Assembly (NCBI RefSeq): GCF_013404085.1
Contig: NZ_JABFHO010000001.1
Span: 682,001 to 746,000 of the forward strand
Direction: 5' to 3'
From: Winogradskyella helgolandensis
GTDB lineage: Bacteria; Bacteroidota; Bacteroidia; Flavobacteriales; Flavobacteriaceae
Length of the DNA: 64,000 nt
The notes beneath the pieces were generated by a model, which saw nothing but the letters and a program-made list of their open reading frames with translations, was not told the DNA's origin and made no database searches. Positions 5,301 to 35,977 of the stretch are shown here, in pieces (position 1 is the first letter of the stretch; each line of letters begins with the position of its first letter). Both the position numbers and the translations under genes were made by a program.

Positions 5301-8300
5301 TTCGCACTAGGTTCTGGTACATTTGAATATAATATCGACACCAACCCATATATTTTATCTGATTTAACATCTGATACTAGTTATGAGTATTATGTACAAG
5401 CTATTTGTAGCCCTGGAGATGAAAGTTCATTTAACGGCCCATTCGAGTTCTATACTGGTTACTGTGCTTCTATTCCTTCATCTAATGATGGTAATGGAGT
5501 TAACAACGCTACAGTCGGTTTAACAGATTTTCCAAGTCCAGGAGATGTCACTTATGAAAATAATACGTCACCTGTTGTGAATGTTTTCCAAGGGATAAAT
5601 ACCAATGTAGAAATAGAATATGCTCATACAGCAACCTACAATACTAATATCTGGATAGATTTTAATGATGATTTAATATTCGATACCTCTGAGATGGTAT
5701 ATGGAGGTGCTTCAGCAGGCGGTAGTAATCCACATATATTAGATGCTTCATTTACAATGCCTTTAACAGCTCCACTAGGAGAACATAGAATGCGAATTGT
5801 AGGAACTGATTTTGTACAAACACCTATTAACCCTTGTTATAATGGCACTTGGGGTGTAACTTTAGATTTCACAGTAAACGTTCAAGAATTAAATTGTACG
5901 CTTGCCGAAGCAGAATTTACAACAGTACCAGACTGTGATAACGATCAATTTTACATTGCTGTAAACGTTATAAGTTTAGGCGATGCTACTTCATTAGAAA
6001 TTACTAATAATTTTGATGGAGGTACAATTCAAGTCTCTGATACTGAAACATACCAAGCCGGTCCATTCGCTTTTGGAACTGCCGTTAAAGTATTTGTAAC
6101 CAATGAACAAGATAATAATTGTGTTATCAGCAGTGAAACTTTCGAAATTTTAGCATGTCCACCAAGTAATGATGAATGTGACCAAGCTATAACAGCAGTA
6201 GTTAATGAGTTTGGTAGTTGCGATTTAGTAACTTCTGGAACTATACTAGCTGCATCACCTTCAAATGTTCCTGACAGTTCTTGTACTGGCACACCAAATG
6301 ACGATGTTTGGTTTGAGTTTACAGCTTTAAGTGACGTTCAACTGATTTCAATAATTAATATTACTGGAGGTACCACTAATATAGATCATGCTGTTTATGA
6401 AGGGGCTTGTGGATCTTTAACAGAATTATATTGTTCAGATGATGTTGCAAGTATAACAACACAATTAACCATTGGCACAACGTATTACATAAGAGTATTT
6501 AGTGGAGGTAGTGTGTCAGAGACTTCTACGTTTGATCTTTGTATTAGACCTGCACCAACAAATACATTATGTGAAAATGCAGAAAATTTCTGTTCAGAAG
6601 GAGGAGCTTTAGTTGCACCTAGTATATTTGGAATTCCATCTGCTGGAGCAATAGCATGTTTAACTTCTGCTCAAAACCCAACATGGAATACTATTCAAAT
6701 TGGTAGTCCTGGATTGGTTGAAATTACAATATCTCAGGTAGATGATGATGGTTTCGGCTTAGACGTAGATTATGCACTTTGGGGACCTTTTAGTTCTATA
6801 GAAGACTCTTGTGATAATTTAGATTTAGGGTGTCCAACACCAGGAGATTGTCCAGGAATTCCATATGCACCAGAATTCTATCCGTATGGAAACATTGCAG
6901 ATTGTAGTTGGTCAGCAGCTTCAATAGAAACATTAACAATAGACAATGCCCTAGAAGGAGAAATCTATATACTACTAGTATCTAACTATGGAAATCAACC
7001 AGGTACAATTTCTATAGAGCAAACAAACGGAGGTGGTCCAACAGATGGAACTATTGACGCTGAAATCTCAGCTGAGATTGTTAGTAACGAAGTTCTACTT
7101 TTAGAAACTGATGATCCTAATATCGTTGAAGCTAATGTATGTGGTTTTGAATCAATAACGTTAGAAACAAGCTCACCTTTTGCAGATGAATATGTTTGGT
7201 ATAAAGATGGTTTTGTTATGGAAGGAGAAACTTCTTCAACTCTTGTTGTTACAGAATCTAACAACTACCAAGTACAGGCTACTGATAACCAATGTGGTTC
7301 TGAAGCATTCTCTCAAATAGCATTTATATACCTTTATGAAGATCCAGAGCCATTAGCTCCTCAAACACTCGCTGAATGTGATGGGCCAGAAGCTGACGGA
7401 ACAGAAACATTTGATTTAGATGCTTTTTCAACATCACTTGGTCTCGATGGATTTACGGTAAGCTATTATTTGACTACAGATGATGCTGCCCAAGCCATAA
7501 ACCCTGTAGATTCTCAATATGAATCAAGTGGTGAGACACTAATCATCAGAATAGAAGATGAAAATGCTGCAATAAATGGATTCTTAGGATGTAGAGAGTT
7601 ATCTCAAATAGAATTAATAGTTAATCCAAGACCTATTATTAATCAGCCAGAAGATTTTGTTGTCTGTGATGATTTAGATGGTGTTGTAGATGGTGAAACA
7701 GAATTTGATTTAGTTTCCTTAAATGACGAAATTACTATTGAAGATGATATCATAATCTCATACCATACTTCTTTAGAAACAGCAGAAGCTGGTTCAGGCG
7801 CATTAACTAACCCTTACACTAGTAGCGGAGAAACTGTTTATGTCAGAGCAGAAAATACAGTAACTGGATGTTACCAGACGACTTCATTTGATCTAGAAGT
7901 TAATATCGTTCCATTGGCTGATTTTGATCTTCAGTATAATTATATAGTATGTCCTGACGCAACAGTTCCAATTACAATTGGCATAACCCCTTCTAACTTT
8001 ACTGATGCAGATGTTTCTGTTAGTTGGTCTTTAGATGGTAACCCAATAACTGGAAATGGTACAACCTTAAGTTCTGTACTGCTTGCAGGTGAATATTCTG
8101 CTACTATAACTTTTAATGGTACAGGATGTTCTAACACTATAACTGTAACTGTTGAAGAAGCTGAGTCATGTATCTTCCCTGAAGGTATTTCACCAGGTGT
8201 TTCACCAGGTCAGAACGATACTTTTGACTTAAGCAGTTTTGGTGTGACTAAACTTGAAATATTTAACAGATACGGAACACTCGTGTATTCAAAAAAGAAT

Positions 8301-23929: not shown

Positions 23930-24343
23930 TTAGGTATTAAAATTCCATTTCACTTTTTCCCATACTTCTCTTATATATGGTGTAATAGCAAAGACATTAT
24001 CTCGTTCAGATTGAAGCTGGCACCAATATACAATTGTTGAATAGTGAAGAAAGTATTCCTTTTCTAATATTATTTTACACGTTTTCCAATTGTCTTGATG
24101 GTCTTCATCAAATTCAGCAGCTACATCATCTAATGAAGAGACAATTAATCCCATTAAAGTAAATTTATCATCATCATTATCTAATTCGTTTTGATAAACT
24201 GAAATAAAATCACTAATTCTTCCTGAATCAGAAATTTCTAATTCCCAATCTTGCATGTTTCTATCCCAATAAAGTCCAAACCTCCTTGAGAGCTTTTCTT
24301 CTGAAACACCAGAAGGATATCGCATATGTTGTTCAAAATCCAT
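23930..24343 (-). CDS. Hypothetical protein in rtcB-nucleotidyltransferase operon
   Basis: 137 aa, acidic, no signal peptide or TM segment, no recognised domain. Its start codon overlaps the stop of the preceding nucleotidyltransferase by one base (24343), so it is very probably translationally coupled to it and part of the RNA-repair unit. Tryptophan-rich patches (YWDRNMQDWELEI, IREVWEKVKW) and an acidic centre (DNDDDK, EFDEDHQD) are the only notable features. It could be a partner or immunity-like small protein; no function is claimed. Confidence 0.7.
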   Translation of the reverse strand: MDFEQHMRYPSGVSEEKLSRRFGLYWDRNMQDWELEISDSGRISDFISVYQNELDNDDDKFTLMGLIVSSLDDVAAEFDEDHQDNWKTCKIILEKEYFLHYSTIVYWCQLQSERDNVFAITPYIREVWEKVKWNFNT

Positions 24344-25407
24344 TACTTAAGTTTTATATTAGTATAAAAATTGTTTCTAATTTCATAAACTATTTTATTA
24401 ATACTATCTAAGTCCGGTTTTTCCATTAATTGGGAATTATTATAAATAGAATTAAGTTGTTCTTTCATAGTCTCTGCTCTAGAAACCAAATCGTCATATT
24501 CGAATTCAGCATTTTTTATAGACAATAAATAATCTCTATCCTTTCGTCTTACATTAATTGCATTGTTTAGTCCAATTTCTTTTGCCATATGTAACAACCT
24601 AAAGGTATGCATCATGTTTTTTGCATCGTAATTTTTGCTGTGCGAAATATTACTTTTATAGCGTGCATCATTTCTTTTATCTACCCAATCCCAATATTCT
24701 TTATACTTTTTGCAATAAGTGGAATAACCATCTATATTAAAATAAAGTAGCGCGATAGGTTTTTCTGATTTAGGTACCGAACTTAAACAAACTTCATTGG
24801 CATTTGTTCTTGCAATCCCGTTATAGTTTAAATTTTCATCATAAAATAAGTTATAACAATCCTTCATGTGAGACAATTTAACCAATCCGCAATGTTTTGG
24901 GCTTAGACAATTACTAGATATGTAATCCTTAAATAGAATCGATTGTTTTTCATCTCTAACATAGCAAAAATCTTCAATAGATTTTCTCTTCTTTTCCACA
25001 GGATTTACAATTTTCTTATTTAAACCTCTAGCTTTTTTGATCTGTGTAAATGCGTAATTAGCAAATGTGTTTTTACAAAGTTTTGATAAAAAATCTTCTT
25101 TTTTAATGGTATCAAATATGGGGTGTTTATAAAAAATACATTCTTTAGGAACATTTAAAAGTTCCATGATATTTGGATTGTTTTTTGAGAGCAATTCCAC
25201 AAATTTACTTAGCTCATAATAGGCAATATCATTTGTTTCGTTATTGACTTGTGCAATATAATTTAATGAATAATATTGTTCTATTGGCAATATAAATACA
25301 CCACGTATATCTGTATCAGACGTGGCAGTATCTAAGCCATAAGCTCTACTGCCACTAATACTCTCAAAGATTATTGAGCCTGATTTTTTTAATTCTTCAA
25401 TGGTCAT
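24343..25407 (-). CDS. Pol-beta-superfamily nucleotidyltransferase (YcgL/RlaP-like), long form
   Basis: 354 aa. The N-terminal minimal nucleotidyltransferase core has GS at 19-20 in SGSRAYGLDT and metal-binding Asp31 and Asp33 in SDTDIRGVF. A third acidic residue lies probably in the following strand (IAYYELSKF). The rest is helical with basic patches. Members of this COG3541-like group occur beside RtcB ligases and are proposed to add nucleotides to RNA ends before ligation. It overlaps the upstream nucleotidyltransferase gene by 4 bp (ATGA) and the downstream gene by 1 bp. Function in RNA repair is inferred from context. Confidence 0.85.
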   Translation of the reverse strand: MTIEELKKSGSIIFESISGSRAYGLDTATSDTDIRGVFILPIEQYYSLNYIAQVNNETNDIAYYELSKFVELLSKNNPNIMELLNVPKECIFYKHPIFDTIKKEDFLSKLCKNTFANYAFTQIKKARGLNKKIVNPVEKKRKSIEDFCYVRDEKQSILFKDYISSNCLSPKHCGLVKLSHMKDCYNLFYDENLNYNGIARTNANEVCLSSVPKSEKPIALLYFNIDGYSTYCKKYKEYWDWVDKRNDARYKSNISHSKNYDAKNMMHTFRLLHMAKEIGLNNAINVRRKDRDYLLSIKNAEFEYDDLVSRAETMKEQLNSIYNNSQLMEKPDLDSINKIVYEIRNNFYTNIKLK

Positions 25408-26150
25408 TTTATTACTTTTATGAAAAACTGATTAAACGCTTCAGGATTAGCTTTCTTTTTTATGACGCCATCTTTAACGCTATTATTTTCTTTTACAATA
25501 TCTCGAACCAATTGTATCAATACAGCATCCACAGGTTCATTGCTTTTTTCTGTTTTTTGACTTTTTAAATCTATTAAATCACTGAGAACTGAATGAAACT
25601 TCTCATCTACTATCTCATACAGTTCTATAAACAAAACTGGCGGAATGGTTTCGTTTTTATATATCCAATTCGCACACAAAGCAGTTCTTATGGCATAGAA
25701 AAAACTTTTCAGTGTCATTTCATCTGTGTCAAGAGTTTCTTCAAAACCCTTGCTCATACTGTGGTAATGATAAAACCCTGAAACAGGATTAAAGTTGTTT
25801 TCTGCTAAAGTTTTTATTTCGGTTAGAAAATTTTCATTTGCACTATATACGATAGGTGAAAATAACCATTCTGAGAAAGAAGCGTTAGATTTAGATAAGA
25901 GCTTTAATGCTTTTTTTAGTTCCCAACCTGATCCATCCAAATCATCTTCTGTCATAAATTCTATAGTATCTTTTTGTTCCCAGAGGCTTAAATACCATTC
26001 TTTTTTATGTTTATATACAAAACGAATATCATAATCAGAATCTGGTGATGCAAAACCCCAAGCTCTACTTCCAGATTCTACTGCGAATAGGATTTCTATG
26101 TTTTTATCTCTCTCTATTTCTGAGAGTTTTTGTAATATTTTAGTTCTCAT
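25404..26150 (-). CDS. Pol-beta-superfamily nucleotidyltransferase (YcgL/RlaP-like), short form
   Basis: 248 aa. Core motif ESGSRAWGFASPDSDYDIRFVY has Gly27-Ser28 and Asp39/Asp41. The third acidic position is likely in DTIEFMTEDDL. It is paralogous to the 354-aa protein encoded next, which starts within its last codons (4-bp overlap). A palindromic repeat separates it from rtcB about 110 bp upstream. Probable role: template-independent nucleotide transfer to damaged RNA ends, inferred from the family's association with RtcB. Confidence 0.86.
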   Translation of the reverse strand: MRTKILQKLSEIERDKNIEILFAVESGSRAWGFASPDSDYDIRFVYKHKKEWYLSLWEQKDTIEFMTEDDLDGSGWELKKALKLLSKSNASFSEWLFSPIVYSANENFLTEIKTLAENNFNPVSGFYHYHSMSKGFEETLDTDEMTLKSFFYAIRTALCANWIYKNETIPPVLFIELYEIVDEKFHSVLSDLIDLKSQKTEKSNEPVDAVLIQLVRDIVKENNSVKDGVIKKKANPEAFNQFFIKVIK

Positions 26151-26261: not shown

Positions 26262-27710
<1,449 letters not shown>

Positions 27711-27727
27711 CTATTTTAATAACACTA

Positions 27728-27763
27728 CAAATATTATAGTGTAATGCGCAATAGTTTTGCGTA
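27728..27763 (-). promoter_or_regulatory. rtcB promoter with island operator (copy A)
   Basis: On the minus strand, AATATTTG (27728-27735) is a near-consensus -7 box about 54 bp before the rtcB start. Nine bp upstream is the 19-bp element TGCGCA-N7-TGCGTA (27745-27763, plus-strand reading). The same box, spacing and element recur before the tRNA-like array. The element occupies the place of a -33 box, suggesting an activator site. Confidence 0.7.
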
Positions 27764-28238
27764 GTATAAATTTTTTATCCTTTTTTTCTTTATGTTCATT
27801 TTGCCTTGATACATACTGCGAAGCACATCACGAGTTCCATAAAAATGAAAATCCACGAGTAAACGAACCAAAAAATCACAATCAAAATATAGGAAATTGC
27901 TAAAGCACCATTCACTTTCGGAATTCCGTGCTTGAAGCTTCGCTTCGCATCTACATTCCTTCGTTCATTATTTCTGAATTTTGATGTTTTCCGACCATGT
28001 CGAAATTTGGGACTTGAGTTTTTACTTGTTTATGTTTTCAACTCTTTGTCTTCTCTCGCATACTTATGTTTAAATGATGATTGCTAGCTCCGCGTTAGCG
28101 ATTACTCATTCACACTTATTTTACTAAATAGGAAATCGTGATTACTTCGTAGTTGCAACGGAATCCTTTTGCTTTTTCGCAAAAGATATAGTGGAAAGCG
28201 CGACCCAAACCTTTTTCGGTTTGGGTAACGCCATAACA
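27764..28238. other. Intergenic region between rtcB promoter and slipin
   Basis: About 475 bp without a convincing gene. It holds two strong hairpins just after the slipin stop: a 9-bp stem at 28203-28211/28218-28226 and a 7-bp stem near 28167-28187. Neither has a clear T-run. The reverse strand is stop-free from about 27966 to 27723 without a good start, running through the operator. I do not call a gene. Confidence 0.5.
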
Positions 28239-29339
28239 TTACTTATTCACAGAGAAAATATCCTTTAATTGTTCAATAACATTACCGTTTCCAGCAACTG
28301 TGATTTCTCCAATTTTATCGGCAATTTTCTCAACATATTCCATCTCTTTTAATTTAAACAACATATTGTTGTCTTCCATTAATTTCGCGGTATTTAACAA
28401 GCTTCTAGTAGAAGCTGTTTCTTCTCGTCTTGTCACTACATTGGCTTGTGCTTTTTTGTGAGCTATTAAAACTTGGTTCATAATCTCTTTCATGTCGCCT
28501 GGTAAAATAACATCTCGCAAACCTGCGTGCAATACGTTTACACCTAATTTCTCAGCTTGCGTTTTTACATCTTCTAAAACGGCTTTGGCAATCGTTTCCT
28601 TTTGCTCTAACAATTCATCTAAAGTGTAAGCTCCAACAAAGGCTCGTAATGCTAATTGCAACGTGATGTACAATTGCTTTTCGTAATCTTTGCTATGCAT
28701 TAACGCAGTTTCTACGTTAGTCACTTTGTATTGTGCATAGAAATTAATACGAACGGTTGCTTTGTCTTTGGTCAATAATTCTTGACCTGCAACTTCTAAC
28801 TGTAACTGACGCATATCTGCTTTGATGATTTTAATGGTTTGCTCGTTTTTCCAGAAATGGTAGGTACCATGTTCTAGGATTTTAACAAACACGTCATCTA
28901 CAATCATAATTGCTTTTTCGAATGCCGCTACCTCAAACGTTCTAATGTATTGACGCAATTGCATATTGCTAAACAAAGCTTTGCTGACGTCTTCTGTAAT
29001 TTCAATTTTACTTAAATCTACAGTTACGAATTTGTAGTTTATTAAACCGTTCCAAAAAGTGTAACGACCAGCTTTTAATACGCATTTAAAGTTGTTGTTT
29101 TCGTAAAGCAAAACGATTTCATTATCCTTTACATCTACAACATGCAATAGGTTTGCCAACGCCTCATCTTTAAGCAAGATTTCTAATGCTTTTGGTGCAC
29201 TGAAAGCTTGTGATAAGTCGTGTTTTACGAAATTTTCTCTAAAATTCAACCAATGTTTTCCTTCTGTAATAACGCGAGCGTAATTACCGTTTTTAAACAC
29301 TAAACCTACTGTACCTGCATGAATTCTTACTCTATACAT
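28239..29339 (-). CDS. Slipin (SPFH/band-7 family) of RNA-repair type
   Basis: A 366-aa stomatin-like protein. A beta-rich N-terminal part (RVRIHAGTVGLVFKNGNYARVITEG) leads to the band-7 domain (KDKATVRINFYAQYKVTNVETAL), the LGVNVLHAGLRDVILPGDMK segment, and a helical C-terminus (AQANVVTRREETASTRSLLNTA) that may oligomerise. No clear N-terminal TM helix. Slipins recur in bacterial RtcB operons, and their role there is unknown. The frame is open 19 codons further upstream, but MYRVRI at 29339 fits homologues in length. It lies downstream of the tRNA-like array, separated by a terminator at 29438-29457. Confidence 0.88.
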   Translation of the reverse strand: MYRVRIHAGTVGLVFKNGNYARVITEGKHWLNFRENFVKHDLSQAFSAPKALEILLKDEALANLLHVVDVKDNEIVLLYENNNFKCVLKAGRYTFWNGLINYKFVTVDLSKIEITEDVSKALFSNMQLRQYIRTFEVAAFEKAIMIVDDVFVKILEHGTYHFWKNEQTIKIIKADMRQLQLEVAGQELLTKDKATVRINFYAQYKVTNVETALMHSKDYEKQLYITLQLALRAFVGAYTLDELLEQKETIAKAVLEDVKTQAEKLGVNVLHAGLRDVILPGDMKEIMNQVLIAHKKAQANVVTRREETASTRSLLNTAKLMEDNNMLFKLKEMEYVEKIADKIGEITVAGNGNVIEQLKDIFSVNK

Positions 29340-29362
29340 GATTTCTAATTTTTTTGTTCTGA

Positions 29363-29382
29363 AGTTTCTAATTTTTAATTCA
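29363..29382. repeat. 20-bp repeat shared by slipin and prfH leaders (copy 1)
   Basis: AGTTTCTAATTTTTAATTCA occurs here, immediately before the slipin start, and again exactly at 33720-33739 in the prfH leader. Confidence 0.6.
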
Positions 29383-29432
29383 GAACGGTTAAACATTTAT
29401 AATAGAATTCTCTTTTTTGAGAATGACTATTC

Positions 29433-29457
29433 AAAAGATCCCGCTTTTCAGCGGGAT
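29433..29457 (-). terminator. Terminator between tRNA-like array and slipin
   Basis: An 8-bp perfect stem with GC core (29438-29445 with 29450-29457), tetraloop, and CTTTT following on the minus strand. A second hairpin (29405-29423) lies just beyond, and a 10-bp perfect hairpin (29470-29479 with 29496-29505) just before. Likely the 3' end of the array RNA, with some read-through into slipin. Confidence 0.7.
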
Positions 29458-29814
29458 TAGTTCAACTGCCATATTTGAATGCATCTTTAAGACTTTTCAA
29501 ATATGAGTTTCACTAACAGAGCGAAAGAAAACCATCTTTCTAATTACGGAAATACAATTGATTTAAAGATTTTTTAAGCTTTGTTCTTTAGACGATTTAT
29601 CAATTTTGAAACAACCGTTTTGGTGCTTCGTTAATCAAAAAATGAATCTTTAAAAGAAAACCTAAAATGGCTTTAAATACATCAGTATTTCAAGGTGTTT
29701 TCTAGACTGCGTAAACAACGAATTGCTTTTGCGAGTTTTAGTTCACTTTGTTTTTGCCATTTAAAGTGTGGAGCACTTGGTGGTCTATTTTTAAAAGTGA
29801 CCTTCTTCGGGAAT

Positions 29815-29910
29815 ATGGATTTTGAGTCCATTTCAATACAACATCTAAAGTGTTGCGCGTCTACCAGTTTCGCCACAAACCCATTTGAGTTTGGCAGGAC
29901 TCGAACCTAC
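29815..29910 (-). ncRNA. tRNA-like domain P1: circularly permuted, type II (Leu-like)
   Basis: Reading the minus strand, the T-arm comes first (29910-29894, 5-bp stem with one mismatch, loop TTCGAGT). Acceptor 3' strand CAAACTC, a 4-nt loop AAAT, and acceptor 5' strand GGGTTTG follow (29893-29876, 7 bp with one G-U). Then come TG, a D-arm with AAACTGGTAGA loop (29873-29857), and a full anticodon arm CAACA-CTTTAGA-TGTTG (29855-29839). A variable-arm stem can form between ATTGA after the anticodon arm and TCAAT before the T-arm. So the domain is a type II tRNA opened in the variable arm and closed at the acceptor. Formal anticodon UUA. A hairpin ATGGA/TCCAT (29815-29831) ends it. Confidence 0.6.
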
Positions 29911-29913
29911 AAA

Positions 29914-29988
29914 TTGATCTATTGTTCTAACCAGACTGAACTACCTCAAATAAATTGAGAATGGGATTCGAACCCACGACCGATAGAT
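29914..29988 (-). ncRNA. tRNA-like domain P2: circularly permuted tRNA
   Basis: On the minus strand: anticodon-stem 3' strand ATCTAT (29988-29983), 5-nt variable loop CGGTC, T-arm GTGGG-TTCGAAT-CCCAT (29977-29961). Next come acceptor TCTCAA, loop TTTAT, acceptor TTGAGG (6 bp, one G-U), then TA at positions 8-9 and D-arm GTTC/GAAC with loop AGTCTGGTTA (29941-29924). One A follows, then anticodon-stem 5' strand ATAGAT (29922-29917). Every stem and canonical spacing of a class I tRNA is present, but the 3' half precedes the 5' half and the ends are at the anticodon. No anticodon can be assigned without knowing the joined ends. Confidence 0.65.
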
Positions 29989-29995
29989 GATGGTT

Positions 29996-30012
29996 ATTAT
30001 TTGGCAAATAAC
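29996..30012 (-). ncRNA. Gly(GCC)-type anticodon-arm-like hairpin
   Basis: GTTAT-TTGCCAA-ATAAT: a 5-bp stem with one G-U and a 7-nt loop with U33 and GCC in anticodon position. It lies just upstream (minus strand) of domain P2. No matching D-arm or acceptor was found, so it may be an isolated arm or part of P2's opened anticodon loop. Confidence 0.4.
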
Positions 30013-30112
30013 CGAAGCCTTCAAGTCAAGTTGAATATAAAAACCTCATACCAATTGGTAAGGATTTATACAATAGTGCTATACCGAAACACGTAACAAG
30101 ACTTGCTTGATG

Positions 30113-30249
30113 TGGAAGCAGTAGGACTCGAACCTACACGCTTATCAAGACCAGATTTTAACTCAACGGATTCTATTTATTAATAGGATTCGTTGAATGC
30201 GTAAAAACGCATTTCAGTCTGGCGAGCCAACCAATTGCTCAATGCTTCC
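30113..30249 (-). tRNA. tRNA-like gene T3 with insertion in anticodon loop
   Basis: 137 nt. Acceptor GGAAGCA/TGCTTCC is 7 bp perfect, discriminator A. TT and D-arm GAGC/GCTC with AATTGGTTG loop follow, then G26, anticodon-stem CCAGA/TCTGG (30222-30218 and 30155-30151), a 13-nt variable region, and T-arm GTAGG-TTCGAGT-CCTAC. The anticodon loop is replaced by 62 nt containing two hairpins. Removing about 55 nt at the canonical intron position would leave loop CTGAAAA (anticodon GAA), but the long variable region is not Phe-like, so the identity is open. No encoded CCA. Confidence 0.65.
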
Positions 30250-30274
30250 AGTTTTAATATTTTATAGAACGTTG

Positions 30275-30475
30275 TACCTCTTACCAGATTCGAACTGGTA
30301 CTTTCATAATAATGAACAGACAGACTCTAAATGCGCTTCCCTACTTTACATCTTGTGCATTTCGGTGCTTCTGCAAAACCTAGTCATTGGTGAGTGTGCC
30401 ACCAACCACATAATCCTATCACTCCACGGTTACGTAAATCTTTTTCCGCAGCTCTTCCTTTTGAGCTAAAGAGGT
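30275..30475 (-). tRNA. tRNA-like gene T4 with large insertion between D-arm and T-arm
   Basis: 201 nt. Acceptor ACCTCTT/AAGAGGT is 7 bp perfect, discriminator A. TA, D-arm GCTC/GAGC (30466-30451) and T-arm ACCAG-TTCGAAT-CTGGT (30299-30283) directly abut the acceptor. A type II variable-arm hairpin TTCAT-TATT-ATGAA lies before the T-arm. A weak anticodon stem GCGGA/TCTGT is possible. About 115-125 nt more than a type II tRNA separates D-arm and T-arm, including a hairpin TTGGTG/CACCAA. Anticodon not assigned. Confidence 0.62.
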
Positions 30476-30479
30476 ATTA

Positions 30480-30783
30480 ATATTTTAAAAAAGCGTGCTG
30501 AGAATACCTGCGCTTTTAGATAAGCTTTTCTAGAATTATGGCTTACGCTTTCCCTAGTTTTCCACGTTCTTCTCATTGCTTAGAGAATCCTGTACTTATC
30601 TGATGCCTTAATACATTATAGCTGTTCGGCAACTTAGACTTGGCTTGCATAGTGGCTTTTTACCACGCTTTGCAATAACGAGGGTTGGCTCCCTCACCAT
30701 TCATAAACGTCCTCTCTTGAGGCGGCTTATTAGAATGTTTACCACACATTAAAGGCTTGCGACCTCTAACGTTCCATATATTT
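30480..30783 (-). ncRNA. Structured non-coding segment of the array RNA
   Basis: No gene. It contains several small hairpins (for example GAGGG/CCCTC and GTGG/CCAC around 30650-30700). One strand of a 15-bp long-range helix (30622-30636) pairs perfectly with 31004-31018. It does not match any RNA family I recognise. Confidence 0.4.
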
Positions 30784-30838
30784 CAATGGATTTAGGCAAC
30801 TACTAACTGCTATAATGTTCGAAGTCTTTTGCGTTTTC

Positions 30839-30911
30839 TGTATAAAAATACAATGCTCTACCTGAGCAATCCTTCATTGGTGTAGGATTGGGAATCGAAC
30901 CCAAACATATT
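30839..30911 (-). ncRNA. tRNA-like domain P3: circularly permuted tRNA
   Basis: Minus strand: CAAT, variable ATGT, T-arm TTGGG-TTCGATT-CCCAA (30904-30888), acceptor TCCTACA, loop CCAA, acceptor TGAAGGA (6 of 7 bp). TT and D-arm GCTC-AGGTA-GAGC (30867-30855) follow, then ATTG, which can pair with the CAAT at the beginning (anticodon stem, 4 bp). An adjacent hairpin TGTAT/ATACA lies at 30852-30839. The acceptor strand TCCTACA can instead pair with TGTAGG at 30959-30954, giving a non-permuted alternative. Both folds use the same T-arm. Confidence 0.55.
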
Positions 30912-30959
30912 GACCTAGGAAAAGGGCTTCGAAAATGGCTTCGTAGATTTTGGCCTACA

Positions 30960-31448
30960 AAATACCAACCTTTTCCTTGTGTGTCTCCCAACACACGGTA
31001 CTTTAAGTTGCCGAACAGTTTTCTGTCGGGTAACTTTAATACTGCAATGCGCTCCATTAGGTTGGATAACCAAAAATGTAACCCATTACTACAACTTTTC
31101 CTATTGATGTCTCCACCTCAAGCCTAACTTGTGTGTTGGCTATAAATCCTTATCTGCGTCAACGGTTGTCCCTTGCAAATAATGATTTATGTTAACTGCT
31201 TGCTTACTTGTACTATATTCAAAATGAATACAGTCTCCACTTGTACTGTCTACAAATAGATTTATCCTTGTTACCAAGTTTATCTAAAGACGATAAGCCA
31301 CCTCACATCATTAATAATTAATGATGATTTTATTAATATTGAAGCTAAAATTCAACTTCAATTTCTTTCAAAGAACTTATATTAAGCTCTGCTAGACTCC
31401 TTTTTCTAGCAGAGCGCTACTTTTAAAGTCTGATTCCAAAAAGACTTC
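30960..31448 (-). ncRNA. 5' structured part of the array transcript
   Basis: No gene is called. From the promoter inward: a 6-bp hairpin at 31426-31447, an 11-bp perfect hairpin (31386-31396 with 31405-31415), a near-perfect palindrome at 31306-31326, and a CTTG-GTAA-CAAG hairpin near 31270-31281. A hairpin at 31121-31141 and the second strand of the 15-bp long-range helix (31004-31018) follow. A short reverse-strand ORF over 30803-31057 overlaps the tRNA-like domain and is not believed. Confidence 0.45.
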
Positions 31449-31463
31449 TAATTAATTACACTG

Positions 31464-31499
31464 CAAATATTCTGAGCTATTGCGCAGTCTTTTTGCGTA
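31464..31499 (-). promoter_or_regulatory. Promoter of tRNA-like array with island operator (copy B)
   Basis: Minus-strand -7 box AATATTTG (31464-31471), nine bp, then the 19-bp element TGCGCA-N7-TGCGTA (31481-31499). Box, spacing and element are the same as at rtcB. It lies between the exonuclease stop and the array, so it drives the non-coding array (and perhaps slipin). Confidence 0.72.
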
Positions 31500-31532
31500 G
31501 TTAAATTATATTTTGTTTTTAATTCAATTTTT

Positions 31533-32084
31533 TTAGAATTGTATATTTTGATTTAAGCACCAATTCAGAATTTTTGCAATGTTCTTAGCATCGTCAATTC
31601 CTCTATGATGTGTGCCTTCTAATGGAATTTCTAAGATGTCTAGCGCACCATTCATACCAACTTTTCGGTTTAAACCTTTAACTTCAGAAAACAGTGTTTT
31701 TACATTTATATGGTTTTGCGACAAAGGGTATTCTACTCCTCTAATCTTACACTGTTTTTTCATCATATTTAAATCGTAAGCACCATAACTTGCCCATGTG
31801 TATTGATGTGCATCATAATCATCTCTTAATTTTTCACAAGCGTCTTTAAAAGTGATGCCTTCTGAGTCCAACAATTCTTGTGTAATTGTTGTTAGTTCTG
31901 TACAAAAAGGACTGATTTCTGAGCGTGTTGGTTTAATTAACATACCCTCATTTTTAGAAATTAATCCTGTAGATGTATCTAAAACACAGATACCAATTTC
32001 TATGATTTCATTGACTTGACCTGCCGGAATTTTTCCATTCCAACATGTGGCTTCGAGATCTATAATTATTATATATTTATTCAT
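31533..32084 (-). CDS. DEDDh 3'-5' exonuclease (ERI-1/KapD-like)
   Basis: A 183-aa exonuclease fold. Asp9 and Glu11 in IIDLEATCW are the first two metal ligands. YGAYDLNMMKKQC holds the middle Asp, and HHRGIDDAKNIAKIL holds the His-Asp of motif III. ERI-1/KapD relatives trim 3' ends of structured RNA. It is the third gene of prfH-TPR-exonuclease, 48 bp after the TPR gene. In context it may remove damaged RNA 3' ends before nucleotide addition and ligation (inference). Confidence 0.9.
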   Translation of the reverse strand: MNKYIIIIDLEATCWNGKIPAGQVNEIIEIGICVLDTSTGLISKNEGMLIKPTRSEISPFCTELTTITQELLDSEGITFKDACEKLRDDYDAHQYTWASYGAYDLNMMKKQCKIRGVEYPLSQNHINVKTLFSEVKGLNRKVGMNGALDILEIPLEGTHHRGIDDAKNIAKILNWCLNQNIQF

Positions 32085-32132: not shown

Positions 32133-32663
32133 TTATTTCTTCTTTTTTTTCTTTGTGTTCTTGGTTTTTTTAGTCTTTTCTGGTTTCATTTTGTTTTTGA
32201 TCCTTTTAATTTCAGAATCGATGAAACTGATAAAACTGTTATTGTAAACGTGCTTTTTTGCGAGCTTTAAAGTCTTTAATGCCTTCTTGTATTTTTGAAG
32301 AATTTCAAAAAGTTGCCCTTGAAACAAGTAAACTTCCCCTTTGTTTAACCCTTTAACGGTTAGAGAAAAGTCAATAAGTTTTTGAGCTTCTTCGTAGTCT
32401 TCATTCCACATTAAAACTAGAATGTATTTTGAATACACTTTGTGAAAATCTAGTTTGTTAGCCAAAGCCTCTGCGTAATAGTGTTTGGCTTTTTCATAAT
32501 CGCCAAACTGCTCAGCTTGTAAGCGTCCCATTAAATACAAAGCATAAGCGTTGTCTGCTTCGTAGGATAAGGCGTAGTTTAGATTTTCTACTGTTTCTTC
32601 TAGTTCGTATGGATAAGCATCTATGGCTTTAAGCACGTAATTGTTTAACAAATTCGTGTCCAT
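32133..32663 (-). CDS. Tetratricopeptide-repeat protein
   Basis: 176 aa with helical TPR motifs (NAYALYLMGRLQAEQFGDYEKAKHYYAEAL; EDYEEAQKLIDF; GEVYLFQGQLFEILQKYKKAL) and a strongly basic lysine-rich C-terminal tail (about 25 residues) that could contact RNA. No signal peptide. It is placed 11 bp after prfH and 48 bp before the exonuclease gene, probably co-transcribed. Likely an adaptor or scaffold in the RNA-repair unit. Confidence 0.8.
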   Translation of the reverse strand: MDTNLLNNYVLKAIDAYPYELEETVENLNYALSYEADNAYALYLMGRLQAEQFGDYEKAKHYYAEALANKLDFHKVYSKYILVLMWNEDYEEAQKLIDFSLTVKGLNKGEVYLFQGQLFEILQKYKKALKTLKLAKKHVYNNSFISFIDSEIKRIKNKMKPEKTKKTKNTKKKKKK

Positions 32664-32674
32664 TTTTTAATTGT

Positions 32675-33385
32675 TTAATTGTTTAATTGTTTACGCAATT
32701 CATTTTTTAATGCGCAACGTTGTTTTTTAAATTTTTTTACAATTGTATTTCTCTTAAAATCTGAGCCTTTAAAAACTTTTATAGGATTACCTCTTTCTAT
32801 CGATAGATGGTTTTTCCATTGGCTTTTAATTCCAGATCGCAAAGCTTCTAATTGTACTTCTGCAACTTTTTCTTGTAAGCGTGCTTTTGCTATTTTTCTG
32901 TTTTGATGTTGCGAGCGACTATCCATAACCAACACTTGCGTTTTTGTAGGTAGATGCGTCGCTCTAATAGCTGAGCTCACTTTGTTTACATGTTGTCCTC
33001 CTGGTCCAGAACTACGTGTGGCTTGATACGTTATATCTTTTTCAAGAATTTGAAATTGTTCACTTTTTCTAATTTCATATAAACCAACAAACCAGTTTTT
33101 ACGCTTATGTTGTGGTCTAAATGTTGAAGTGCCAATCCACTGAATTGTGCCTGACCATTGACTCAAAAACCGACTTAGGTTGTTTCCTTTGAGCTGAACT
33201 GTTACAGATTGCAACGTCATATTCTCAATGCCTTTTTCTCTATGTAGGATTTTATATTGAATATCCTTGTCGTTTACAGATTCTAAGAAATGTTTTAGAA
33301 TTTGAGCCACAACCCAACTGCATTCTGCTGGTCCTCGACCTGAGGTTATTTGTATTATTTTAGTATTTATTAATGGTTTTCCCAT
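32675..33385 (-). CDS. prfH: Peptide chain release factor homologue PrfH
   Basis: A 236-aa class I release-factor-like protein lacking the full codon-recognition domain. The peptidyl-tRNA hydrolysis motif GGQ (residues 129-131) lies in SSGPGGQHVNKVSSAIRATH. A basic C-terminus follows. The N-terminal ITSGRGPAECSWVV segment is typical of PrfH. PrfH is known to pair with RtcB-type ligases to rescue ribosomes whose 16S decoding centre has been cut. Here it heads prfH-TPR-exonuclease, about 5 kb from rtcB in the same island and orientation. Confidence 0.93.
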   Translation of the reverse strand: MGKPLINTKIIQITSGRGPAECSWVVAQILKHFLESVNDKDIQYKILHREKGIENMTLQSVTVQLKGNNLSRFLSQWSGTIQWIGTSTFRPQHKRKNWFVGLYEIRKSEQFQILEKDITYQATRSSGPGGQHVNKVSSAIRATHLPTKTQVLVMDSRSQHQNRKIAKARLQEKVAEVQLEALRSGIKSQWKNHLSIERGNPIKVFKGSDFKRNTIVKKFKKQRCALKNELRKQLNN

Positions 33386-34123: not shown

Positions 34124-34159
34124 CTGAAAGTTTTAGCTACTACGTAAGCCTTTTGCGTA
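34124..34159 (-). promoter_or_regulatory. Island operator (copy C) in prfH/WYL divergent region
   Basis: TACGTA-N7-TGCGTA (34141-34159) is the third 19-bp copy, with the same N7 spacing. At the distance used in copies A and B lies only a weak -7 box (AACTTTCA, minus strand). A better CATATTTG is 24 bp further. It could serve the prfH side, the WYL gene 85 bp away on the other side, or both (autoregulation). Confidence 0.6.
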
Positions 34160-34243: not shown

Positions 34244-35977
34244 ATGGCCGTAAATAAAAATGCATTAATACGATATAAAACCATTGATAAATGTCTTCAA
34301 AATCATTTTAGACAATGGACACTCAACGATTTAATTGAAGCTGTTTCTGACGCACTTTATGATTATGAAGGTAAAGATGTAGATGTTAGCAAACGTACTG
34401 TGCAATTAGATTTGCAAATGATGCGTAGCGATAAGTTGGGATATAATGCACCAATTGTAGTTTACGATCGTAAGTTTTATAAGTATGAGGATGCGGATTA
34501 TAGTATTACCAACAGCCCAATTTCCAATCAAGATTTGAATAAATTATCTGAAGCGGTTTCTTTTTTAAAACAGTTTCAAGGCTTTTCTCATTTTAATGAA
34601 TTAGGCAGTATGGTTCAGAAATTAGAAGATCATGTTTATACTCAAAAAACACATGAGAGATCTTTAATAGATTTTGAAAAGAATGATAATTTAAAAGGCT
34701 TAGAATTTTTAGATCAGTTGTATCAATTTATATTAAAAAAGGAAGCGATTGAAATCACGTATCAATCATTTAAAGCCCGCAAAGAAAGCACCTTTTTATT
34801 TCATGGTTATTTGTTAAAAGAATTCAGAAACCGATGGTTTTTAATTGGAAAAAGACGAAAAAATGAAGGTATCATGAATTTAGCTTTAGACCGAATAATT
34901 TCAATTAAAAAAAGTGAGAAGCCTTATAATTTTGATGTTAATTTTGATATCGAAACATTTTATAAAAACGCTATTGGAGTTTCTGTAAGTCCGACATTAG
35001 AACCAGAAAAAGTAATCCTTTACATCACCCACAAGCAAGCACCATACATATTAACCAAACCTTTTCATCATTCGCAAAAAGAGATTGATAGAGATCATTA
35101 TGGAGTCACCATTACTTTAGATGTTCAATTAAATTTTGAATTAGAAAAAGAGATTTTAGGTTTGGGTGAAGGTATAAAAGTGATTGCTCCAGAACGCTTA
35201 AAACGAAATATAACAGAACGCTTATATGATGCCGTTGATACCTACGAAACTGAGATTAATGACAAAAGCCTAAGAACGATTGCAAAACGCTTAGAACATA
35301 AAGGTTTTGGAATGCTCAATCATGTCTACACCAAACGTGACATTAGAAAATTAAAATCGCGATTTGATACTTATTTTAAAGAACACAATGAGCAGACTTT
35401 TGGAATGCGTGAAGTCCTCAAAAAGATGCCCGAATTAAAAGATATTCTATTCAATAAGAATTTTAGAAAAGTGGTGAAATCCATAGACAAAAAGACCTTT
35501 TTAACCAAAGCGATATATTTTGACAAATCACCAAAAGACAATTGGTATGTGACATGGCATCAAGACGTACAGATTAATGTTTTAGAGAAAATTGAAACAA
35601 AAGGCTTTTCAGCTTGGACAAATAAAAAAGGAGTTATAAGTGTACGTCCACCTGAAGAAATTTCTAAAAATACATTTTCAATGCGAATTCATCTCGATGA
35701 TACCACTGTTAAAAATGGAGCACTTAAAGTGATTCCAGGTTCTCATAATAAACAGTTGCGTACTGAAGAAATTAAACTAATTAGTACGAATTCGATTCCT
35801 TTTGTGAGCGAAGTATCCTCTGGAGGTGTGCAATTATTGAAGCCATTAGTATTGCATGCTTCGTCTGAAACTACGGTTCAAAAAAGACGACGTGTTTTAC
35901 ATTTAGAGTTTTCGTCTATAGAATTACCACAGGGTTTACAGTATGCAGAAAGAGAAGATTTATTTAGTAATTCTTAA
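34244..35977 (+). CDS. WYL regulator fused to phytanoyl-CoA-dioxygenase-like domain
   Basis: 577 aa. Residues 1-85 look like a winged-helix DNA-binding domain (VSKRTVQLDLQMMRSD). Residues about 150-335 form a WYL-type ligand-sensing region (ITYQSFKARKESTFLFHGYLL ... RNRWFLIGKRR, ALDRI). From about 345 to the end is a PhyH-like 2-oxoglutarate/Fe(II) dioxygenase. Its metal triad is His439-x-Asp441 (WHQDVQ) and His538 (VLHASSETT), with NGALKVIPGSH and the basic RRRVLH for 2-oxoglutarate. WYL proteins regulate defence and RNA-repair loci, and the catalytic fusion is unusual. The only plus-strand gene of the island, it probably acts on the TRCGYA-N7-TGCGTA sites. Its 3' end overlaps the convergent ABC gene by 18 bp. 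Confidence 0.87.
   Translation: MAVNKNALIRYKTIDKCLQNHFRQWTLNDLIEAVSDALYDYEGKDVDVSKRTVQLDLQMMRSDKLGYNAPIVVYDRKFYKYEDADYSITNSPISNQDLNKLSEAVSFLKQFQGFSHFNELGSMVQKLEDHVYTQKTHERSLIDFEKNDNLKGLEFLDQLYQFILKKEAIEITYQSFKARKESTFLFHGYLLKEFRNRWFLIGKRRKNEGIMNLALDRIISIKKSEKPYNFDVNFDIETFYKNAIGVSVSPTLEPEKVILYITHKQAPYILTKPFHHSQKEIDRDHYGVTITLDVQLNFELEKEILGLGEGIKVIAPERLKRNITERLYDAVDTYETEINDKSLRTIAKRLEHKGFGMLNHVYTKRDIRKLKSRFDTYFKEHNEQTFGMREVLKKMPELKDILFNKNFRKVVKSIDKKTFLTKAIYFDKSPKDNWYVTWHQDVQINVLEKIETKGFSAWTNKKGVISVRPPEEISKNTFSMRIHLDDTTVKNGALKVIPGSHNKQLRTEEIKLISTNSIPFVSEVSSGGVQLLKPLVLHASSETTVQKRRRVLHLEFSSIELPQGLQYAEREDLFSNS

Follow-up and report, generated by a model that had tools for sequence, protein, structure and literature searches.

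A Conserved Structured RNA with Circularly Permuted tRNA Modules Ahead of a Slipin Gene in an RNA-Repair Island of Winogradskyella helgolandensis

In the circularly permuted transfer RNA (tRNA) genes of algae and archaea, the 3′ half of the tRNA lies upstream of its 5′ half. The same order was found in tRNA-like modules of an RNA-repair island of Winogradskyella helgolandensis (assembly GCF_013404085.1, contig NZ_JABFHO010000001.1, positions 682,001–746,000 of the forward strand; this 64-kb stretch is referred to as the window, and all coordinates are counted within it). Two of these modules belong to a conserved predicted RNA, here named E3, which lies ahead of a slipin gene. Unlike the algal and archaeal genes, the island modules give no sign of a working tRNA and combine a fixed scaffold with switching anticodons.

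The bacterial Y RNA YrlA (RF02553) shares with the first module of E3 the order of closing stem, T-arm, acceptor hairpin, D-arm and closing stem, and it also occurs with rtcB in RNA-repair operons. E3 differs from it in its serial modules, in the closed anticodon arm and switching triplet of its second module, in its slipin partner and in its length of about 600 nt. The Rfam YrlA scores obtained in the window (31.8 and 25.3 bits) and, at best, in the related locus L060 (41.0 bits) are all below the cut-off of 69 bits, and Ro60 (TROVE, PF05731) had no match in the W. helgolandensis genome in a search whose control matched 1 of 14 named genomes. Because of the low scores and the lack of a Ro60 match in the genome, the mimic, although it would work like that of a Y RNA, was not classed as one.

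In Anabaena, a tRNA array, rtcB and a slipin gene belong to the TrcR regulon, which is under common control and induced by translational stress (PMC10272220; here and below, a citation refers to excerpts of the paper named). The association of these three components is common to both systems; the Anabaena genes differ in being scattered, and those excerpts mention no permuted tRNA-like RNA (PMC10272220). The rtc loci of enterobacteria and Pseudomonas (PMC13086221) likewise have a slipin gene beside the rtc genes, followed in Citrobacter and Escherichia coli by a nucleotidyltransferase gene, and differ from the island in that the Citrobacter and E. coli loci carry only a T-arm and an acceptor-like hairpin ahead of the slipin gene. 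GOLLD RNAs have been described in phages and prophages close to tRNA islands, with a linker that sometimes holds tRNAs, and one GOLLD forms a 14-mer RNA cage with the linker inside (PMC12286853); a pseudo-tRNA has been described within a mycobacterial GOLLD (PMC6582537). The RNA of this kind in the W. helgolandensis island shares with GOLLD a full-length model match, most of the fold, a tRNA-like piece in the linker and tRNA islands nearby in relatives; it differs in its score under the Rfam cut-off, its location in a chromosomal RNA-repair island and the permuted order of its linker tRNA. In the open-access literature searched, no prior report was found of serial permuted modules with switching anticodons, of their pairing with a slipin or of a GOLLD-like RNA in a repair island, nor any paper combining GOLLD with RtcB, or rtcB with a slipin and tRNA-like sequences.

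Permuted Modules of the E3 RNA

A reading of this DNA made from the sequence alone had described a chain of five tRNA-like domains within 1.1 kb of the minus strand, none of them an ordinary tRNA gene. All five were located there, and ARAGORN found no ordinary tRNA gene in the whole window. When introns were allowed, the program gave exactly two tRNAs on 29301–31500, at 30475–30274 (113-nt insert) and 30249–30112 (55-nt insert), both with 7-bp acceptors; these are the two domains for which perfect acceptors and inserted sequence at the anticodon had been claimed. The three domains held to be permuted were recovered as well, since a scanner demanding the order T-arm, acceptor hairpin, D-arm gave exactly three matches on both strands of the 64 kb, with T-loops at 30899, 29972 and 29905. 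The domains are thus real, but they do not form one uniform chain: they are distributed over four distinct elements, and two of the permuted ones lie in a conserved RNA that extends to about 29515. Among 80 comparison loci (the best 80 of 573 rtcB loci, designated by L numbers), a conserved leader, the GOLLD-like RNA, a 200-nt tRNA-like RNA, a Tyr-type tRNA and E3 move independently of one another.

The same scanner gave no match in 1.23 Mb of viral contigs (both strands), and 78 sense-strand and no antisense matches in the 80 rtcB loci (1.58 Mb); this silence in viral and antisense sequence excludes a chance origin of the permuted modules. With a laxer earlier version, 83 matches (one antisense) were obtained in the 80 loci, against a mean of 1.7 in three Markov shuffles. 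Some sense-strand matches in relatives consist of neighbouring ordinary tRNAs only, as judged for 16 of the 59 distinct modules (identical ones being counted once). After rotation to tRNA order, ARAGORN called all 59 of them tRNAs, compared with none in native order and none of 177 shuffles, a result that is partly circular because the scanner itself demands tRNA features. With the Rfam tRNA model, one insert-bearing domain scored above the cut-off of 29 bits (42.8 bits), and the remaining scores were below it (27.1 and 26.5 bits). The 26.5-bit match, an ordinary-order tRNA that would be made up of D-arm 1 and T-arm 2, was rejected, as a directly flanking acceptor with at least 6 of 7 pairs was present in 0 of 31 sequences.

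Thirty-three of the comparison loci matched E3 over its modules. The alignment comprised 31 sequences for the modules and 29 for the 3′ domain; weak matches within tRNA arrays (L026, L051 and L064) and a second match in L036 were excluded, and L046 and L053, each with a third module, were for that reason omitted from the 3′-domain alignment. In modules 1 and 2, the 40 pairs of the permuted structure were formed in 97.4% of cells (shuffled, 79.1%), 29 of the 40 showed two-sided change (shuffled, 20.3), and 247 cells carried such a change (shuffled, 74.4). The covariation score was 0.544 versus 0.209 for shuffled alignments (reached in 0 of 500), and at most 0.136 when the pairing partners were slid by 1–3 columns. 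RNAalifold, unprompted, proposed the same module helices, with 27 of 36 pairs compensatory. The covariation analysis on homologous loci that had been suggested as a check therefore revealed abundant compensatory substitution in place of random decay, and pseudogene decay of the permuted modules is refuted by these 31 sequences. The closing stem of module 1 is intact in 31/31 (helix 1, 100% of cells paired), and module 1 is a permuted tRNA mimic with an open anticodon stem, as in YrlA. E3 as a whole is not represented by a family in the Rfam release searched. It had no blastn match in 50,697 phage records, and the region 29515–31345 had none in 72,556 plasmid records.

Module 2 terminates in a closed anticodon arm of 5 bp with a 7-nt loop in 29 of the 31 sequences. 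In all 29 closed arms position 33 is U and position 37 is a purine, and the triplet between them takes nine forms (TCG in seven sequences, TAG and TTT in six each, TTA in three, TTG and CAT in two each, and ATA, CAA and ACG in one each). The same anticodon stem can bear different triplets, and the identities of D-arm and anticodon can disagree, as exemplified by L020, in which a Leu-type D-arm is combined with a Lys-type anticodon; the triplet of the window is 'UUA'. On a tree built from the E3 scaffold with the modules removed (27 of the 31 rows; L046, L053, L019 and L024, in which part is absent, were excluded) the triplet changed about 15 times, the minimum for nine states being 8. Shuffling gave a mean of 17.9 changes and values as low as observed in 4 of 200 cases, so some clustering of triplets by kinship remains. 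Since the scaffold is largely fixed and the triplet varies, E3 can be described as a scaffold carrying a switching anticodon.

E3 is found less than 1 kb 5′ of a Band_7 (slipin) gene in 30/30 E3-bearing rtcB loci, while 31 of the 80 loci contain Band_7. As the 80 loci had been picked by rtcB, independent searches with E3 and with the slipin matter here. The E3 DNA search gave matches in 29 of 199 family genomes at E ≤ 0.001 and in 22 at E < 1e-10, the genome of origin included. Twenty-two of the loci obtained in this way (L083–L104) contain the 5′ domain of E3, followed in 21 of them by the slipin gene, L089 having rtcB instead; a further six (L105–L110) have neither the 5′ domain nor a slipin gene and look like chance matches. 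The slipin protein search gave matches in 20 of 395 Bacteroidota genomes at E ≤ 1e-50, of which 18 were newly fetched, the genome of origin and G157 being already covered. One or more permuted modules were present about 320–650 bp upstream in 17 of these 18 homologues, nine of the 18 lying outside the family; L219 has no upstream permuted module and that of L218 is the weakest. The hidden Markov model (HMM) of the E3 5′ domain recognised 12 of the 18 loci at E ≤ 0.01. The slipin had no match in phages at E 1e-20.

Outside the Bacteroidota, a plasmid collection contained nine records with a slipin match, and the six that were fetched encode homologues of 33–40% identity. At least one GGTTCRA T-loop motif lies within about 810 nt upstream of the slipin match in all six. 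By eye, ordinary-order tRNA-like sequences precede the slipin gene in Photobacterium and two Burkholderia, and Subdoligranulum has a unit of permuted appearance that escaped the scanner. Among the six, the scanner gave a single match, in Burkholderia cenocepacia, which overlaps an ordinary-order tRNA-like sequence at its end and is probably spurious. At gathering thresholds, Rfam gave no RNA ahead of the slipin in L220, L221, L222 and L224, except two tRNA matches in L224. The Citrobacter and E. coli pieces lie just ahead of the rtc slipin gene (L221, ~5790–5890; L222, ~5820–5920), and the E. coli stretch was found in 1624 of 5426 complete genomes. An extension of the arrangement beyond the Bacteroidota is, from these sequences, suggestive only.

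Other RNAs and Genes of the Island

Table 1. Elements of the RNA-repair island (window coordinates).
Feature	Position	Strand	Basis or remarks
Second RlaP-like protein	24343..25407	-	PF10127, E 2.3e-24
RlaP nucleotidyltransferase	25404..26150	-	PF10127, E 4e-69
RtcB RNA ligase	26262..27674	-	PF01139; active-site motifs aligned with 4dwr
Promoter/operator-like motif, second copy (upstream of rtcB)	27728..27763	-	
Flavo-1 RNA (RF01705), opposite strand between slipin and rtcB genes	28141-28209	+	
Slipin/SPFH (Band_7) protein	28239..29396	-	PF01145, E 1.5e-25; structure
Terminator-like hairpin and T run, between E3 and slipin gene	29433..29457	-	By eye
E3, conserved structured RNA of ~600 nt	29515..30111	-	30/80 rtcB loci; family-genome search
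E3 3′ domain, possible long-range pairing	29515..29812	-	Weakly supported consensus, 23 pairs
Extra anticodon-arm-like hairpin ATGGA-CTCAAAA-TCCAT	29815..29831	-	Sequence; 7-nt loop varies in relatives
Permuted module 2: T-arm, acceptor hairpin, D-arm, closed anticodon arm 29839-29855, loop CTTTAGA	29839..29910	-	Scanner; covariation; anticodon table
Permuted module 1, YrlA-like: closing stem, T-arm, acceptor hairpin, D-arm, closing stem	29918..29987	-	Scanner; covariation
E3 5′ domain	30013..30111	-	29 consensus pairs, 10 compensatory
Tyr-type tRNA C split by insert (element 30159-30213)	30112..30249	-	Rfam tRNA 42.8 bits; relatives with and without element
tRNA-like RNA B, normal order, 113-nt insert at anticodon	30274..30475	-	ARAGORN with introns; unit kept in L017, L060, L081
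GOLLD-like giant RNA	30478..31345; Rfam core 30492-30977	-	Rfam and covariation in 10 distinct relatives
Permuted module A in GOLLD linker: T-arm, acceptor hairpin, D-arm, short hairpin	30838..30905	-	Scanner T-loop 30899; YrlA 25.3 bits
Promoter/operator-like motif TACGCA..TGCGCA..TATTTG, head of RNA region	31464..31499	-	Motif search
Exonuclease, RNase_T/DEDD type	31533..32084	-	PF00929; PADLOC DEDDh
TPR protein	32133..32663	-	PF13424
PrfH, peptide chain release factor H	32675..33385	-	TIGR03072, 220 bits, cut-off 166.65
WYL-domain protein, C-terminal PhyH match, divergent from island	34244-35977	+	Motif half-site at 34159

The third permuted module lies in the linker of the large RNA upstream of E3 (Table 1). 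The full-length match of this RNA to GOLLD (RF02032), obtained with Rfam at a permissive threshold, has 133.3 bits (E 1.8e-36), below the gathering cut-off of 150, and that of L060 (121.5 bits, E 5.6e-33) is likewise under the cut-off; the RNA was therefore named GOLLD-like. Ten distinct relatives, the window included, were aligned over about 820 nt. When the Rfam fold of the GOLLD 3′ domain (86 pairs) was mapped onto them, 89.2% of 858 cells were paired (shuffled, 85.5%) and 22 pairs were compensatory, versus 10.7 in shuffled alignments and at most 6 after sliding. RNAalifold on the whole alignment gave 219 pairs, 85 of them compensatory, and recovered 63 of the 86 mapped pairs. The conserved secondary structure of the GOLLD 3′ domain is thus present in the island RNA. 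By eye, eight of the ten linkers hold the T-arm, acceptor hairpin and D-arm (L010 and L113 are without them), and that of L060 adds a full anticodon arm, Gly-UCC. The GOLLD-like DNA search gave matches in 7 of 397 family genomes at E ≤ 0.001, five of them strong, the genome of origin included. The GOLLD HMM matched 10 of 67 viral contigs, none of the ten showing a tRNA in the linker by eye. The GOLLD core (30490–31000) had no blastn match among the 50,697 phage records; no prophage search of the window was made.

The 200-nt tRNA-like RNA B has a long structured insert and the plan of a transfer-messenger RNA, yet retains a D-arm. Its equivalents are at 5596–5805 in L017, 10691–10910 in L060 and 7389–7606 in L081, and it moves as a unit, being placed ahead of the GOLLD-like RNA in L060 and beside rlaP in L081. 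The 55-nt element that splits the Tyr-type tRNA C is present at this place in the window and in L004, L006, L012, L013, L020, L037 and L064, and the equivalent tRNA is found without it in L002, L003, L007, L018, L025 and others. Ser-type anticodon loops carry the element too, and a shorter related form occurs in T-loops. Fifteen of 16 matches to the element pattern follow GA, and one (L004, 7565) lies outside a recognisable tRNA. In structure the element is a small two-hairpin insertion (further sites at L005 7656, L014 6769, L035 20962, L041 17895, L004 7778 and L011 7857), and two matches are antisense within tRNAs of L014 and L041. The element looks mobile or intron-like. The idea that it is a common mobile repeat was dropped, as the W. 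helgolandensis genome holds a single copy of the pattern; a loose pattern matched 15 of 397 family genomes, with true copies, by eye, only in G000, G363 and G240. Removal of the 55-nt insert and ligation into a tRNA may be possible.

The sequence-only reading had placed the domains beside RtcB, and the rtcB gene is indeed present with its active-site motifs conserved. The motifs DICC, GNHF, HGSRG, HxKGAT and HGAGR, which we take to have catalytic roles, align with 4dwr, and both the metal and the histidine motifs were found. PADLOC, run on ten proteins, gave matches only for the exonuclease and the WYL protein. Searched on both strands, the window contains just two full copies of the promoter-like motif, one preceding the RNA region and the other preceding rtcB. 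A total of 74 matches were counted across the 80 loci, with rtcB at most 300 bp downstream in 28 and Band_7 as the next tested gene within 3 kb in 20. The WYL protein is a possible regulator. Arrays comprising as many as 18 ordinary tRNAs in similar order occur in many relatives (L005, L010, L014, L017, L036, L041, L049, L060 and others).

Possible Functions of the Permuted Mimics

The permuted fold and its conservation, diversified loops that keep U33 and purine 37, pairing with a slipin and a context of repair genes occur together at this locus. The reading that we favour, tentatively and at somewhat less than an even chance, is that the mimics bait anticodon-cutting nucleases, being bound or cut instead of real tRNAs. 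A sensor or decoy had been offered earlier as an alternative explanation of the permuted domains, and among the functions considered it fits the data best. It is suggested by an anticodon loop that keeps the common tRNA features while its identity is free to change, and by the repair enzymes, together with the tRNA arrays of relatives, that adjoin the mimics. On this model the region would be transcribed, and switched on by translation damage through the motif shared with rtcB; E3 and the slipin would form a particle; and the acceptor, closed as a hairpin, would keep the mimic out of aminoacylation and translation. A cut bait could be resealed by RtcB, the tRNA arrays of relatives might replace lost tRNAs, and the GOLLD-like RNA would carry a similar mimic in its linker, which lies inside the cage in the known GOLLD. 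YrlA has been proposed to be a competitive inhibitor of a nuclease (PMC7790460), a phage tRNA-Lys with an altered anticodon stem-loop escapes AriB of the PARIS system (PMC11455837), and in Anabaena rtcB is co-regulated with a tRNA array and a slipin (PMC10272220).

Several observations weigh against baiting. Module 1 is open at the anticodon and has no loop, the anticodon arm of module 2 is absent in 2/31 sequences, and most GOLLD linkers other than that of L060 lack one. The tRNA-like sequences of Burkholderia have a GAAA tetraloop in place of the anticodon loop, and Citrobacter and E. coli keep only the two hairpins already mentioned; these missing anticodon loops argue against bait as a general function. 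The nuclease studied with Salmonella YrlA did not cut it (PMC7790460), and PrfH-RtcB2 protects E. coli from colicin E3, which cuts 16S ribosomal RNA, and, according to a section heading, not from tRNA-targeting toxins (PMC9223846), so part of the island may serve ribosome repair.

That mimics without an anticodon loop are frequent is better accommodated by a Y-RNA-like adaptor, on which they would dock tRNA-binding proteins (RtcB, RlaP, nucleases or modification enzymes) onto a slipin particle, the anticodon arm being incidental or a handling site. This role, a possible one though we lean away from it, fits nearly as well as bait: module 1 has the YrlA order, the slipin pairing is near-constant, and in Deinococcus a Y RNA tethers Ro60 to PNPase (PMC7790460). 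It leaves the retention of U33 and purine 37 beside a switching triplet unexplained, and the genome of origin has no Ro60 match. The position of E3 immediately 5′ of, and co-oriented with, the slipin gene would also suit a cis-acting sensor, in which the tRNA-like domains form the leader of the slipin messenger RNA and their cutting or binding alters its expression; we consider this unlikely, given the terminator-like hairpin, recognised by eye, between E3 and the slipin gene, the length of E3, far beyond that of common leaders, and the E3 of L089, which has no slipin in its stretch.

The sequence-only reading had pointed out that turning the domains into mature tRNAs would require cutting and ligation, as performed by RtcB in archaea and animals. 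The conserved active-site motifs of RtcB, the 55-nt element splitting a Tyr-type tRNA gene that is intact in relatives, and the (partly circular) result with the rotated modules would agree with precursors of real tRNAs that RtcB circularises or splices. For the permuted modules this proposal is not supported and is quite improbable: their acceptor ends are closed by hairpins, triplets switch on a fixed scaffold, D-arm and anticodon identities are mismatched, anticodon arms can be missing altogether and a conserved scaffold surrounds the modules. Hardly credible is a graveyard of tRNA pseudogenes decaying from a phage-like tRNA array; ordinary tRNA arrays do lie nearby in many relatives, and GOLLD is known from phage tRNA islands (PMC12286853), but the compensatory change over 31 sequences is strong, and 17 of 18 slipin homologues from across the Bacteroidota have permuted modules ahead of them.

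Returning to baits for anticodon nucleases, a wider and rather doubtful form of the proposal would make E3 a new class of bacterial RNA that forms, with a putatively vault-like slipin, a particle displaying a panel of uncharged permuted tRNA baits, with anticodons evolving against anticodon nucleases. The same kind of mimic inside GOLLD cages would then give GOLLD a function, and the tRNA-like sequences ahead of rtc slipins in other phyla would belong to the same system.

The locus adds a conserved structured RNA, E3, and permuted tRNA modules ahead of slipin genes across the Bacteroidota. It links GOLLD cages, which have no known function, the slipins of rtc loci and bacterial Y-like RNAs, whose roles are unclear, to RNA repair, and it offers a concrete test of whether tRNA mimics with interchangeable anticodons draw the fire of tRNA-cutting toxins.

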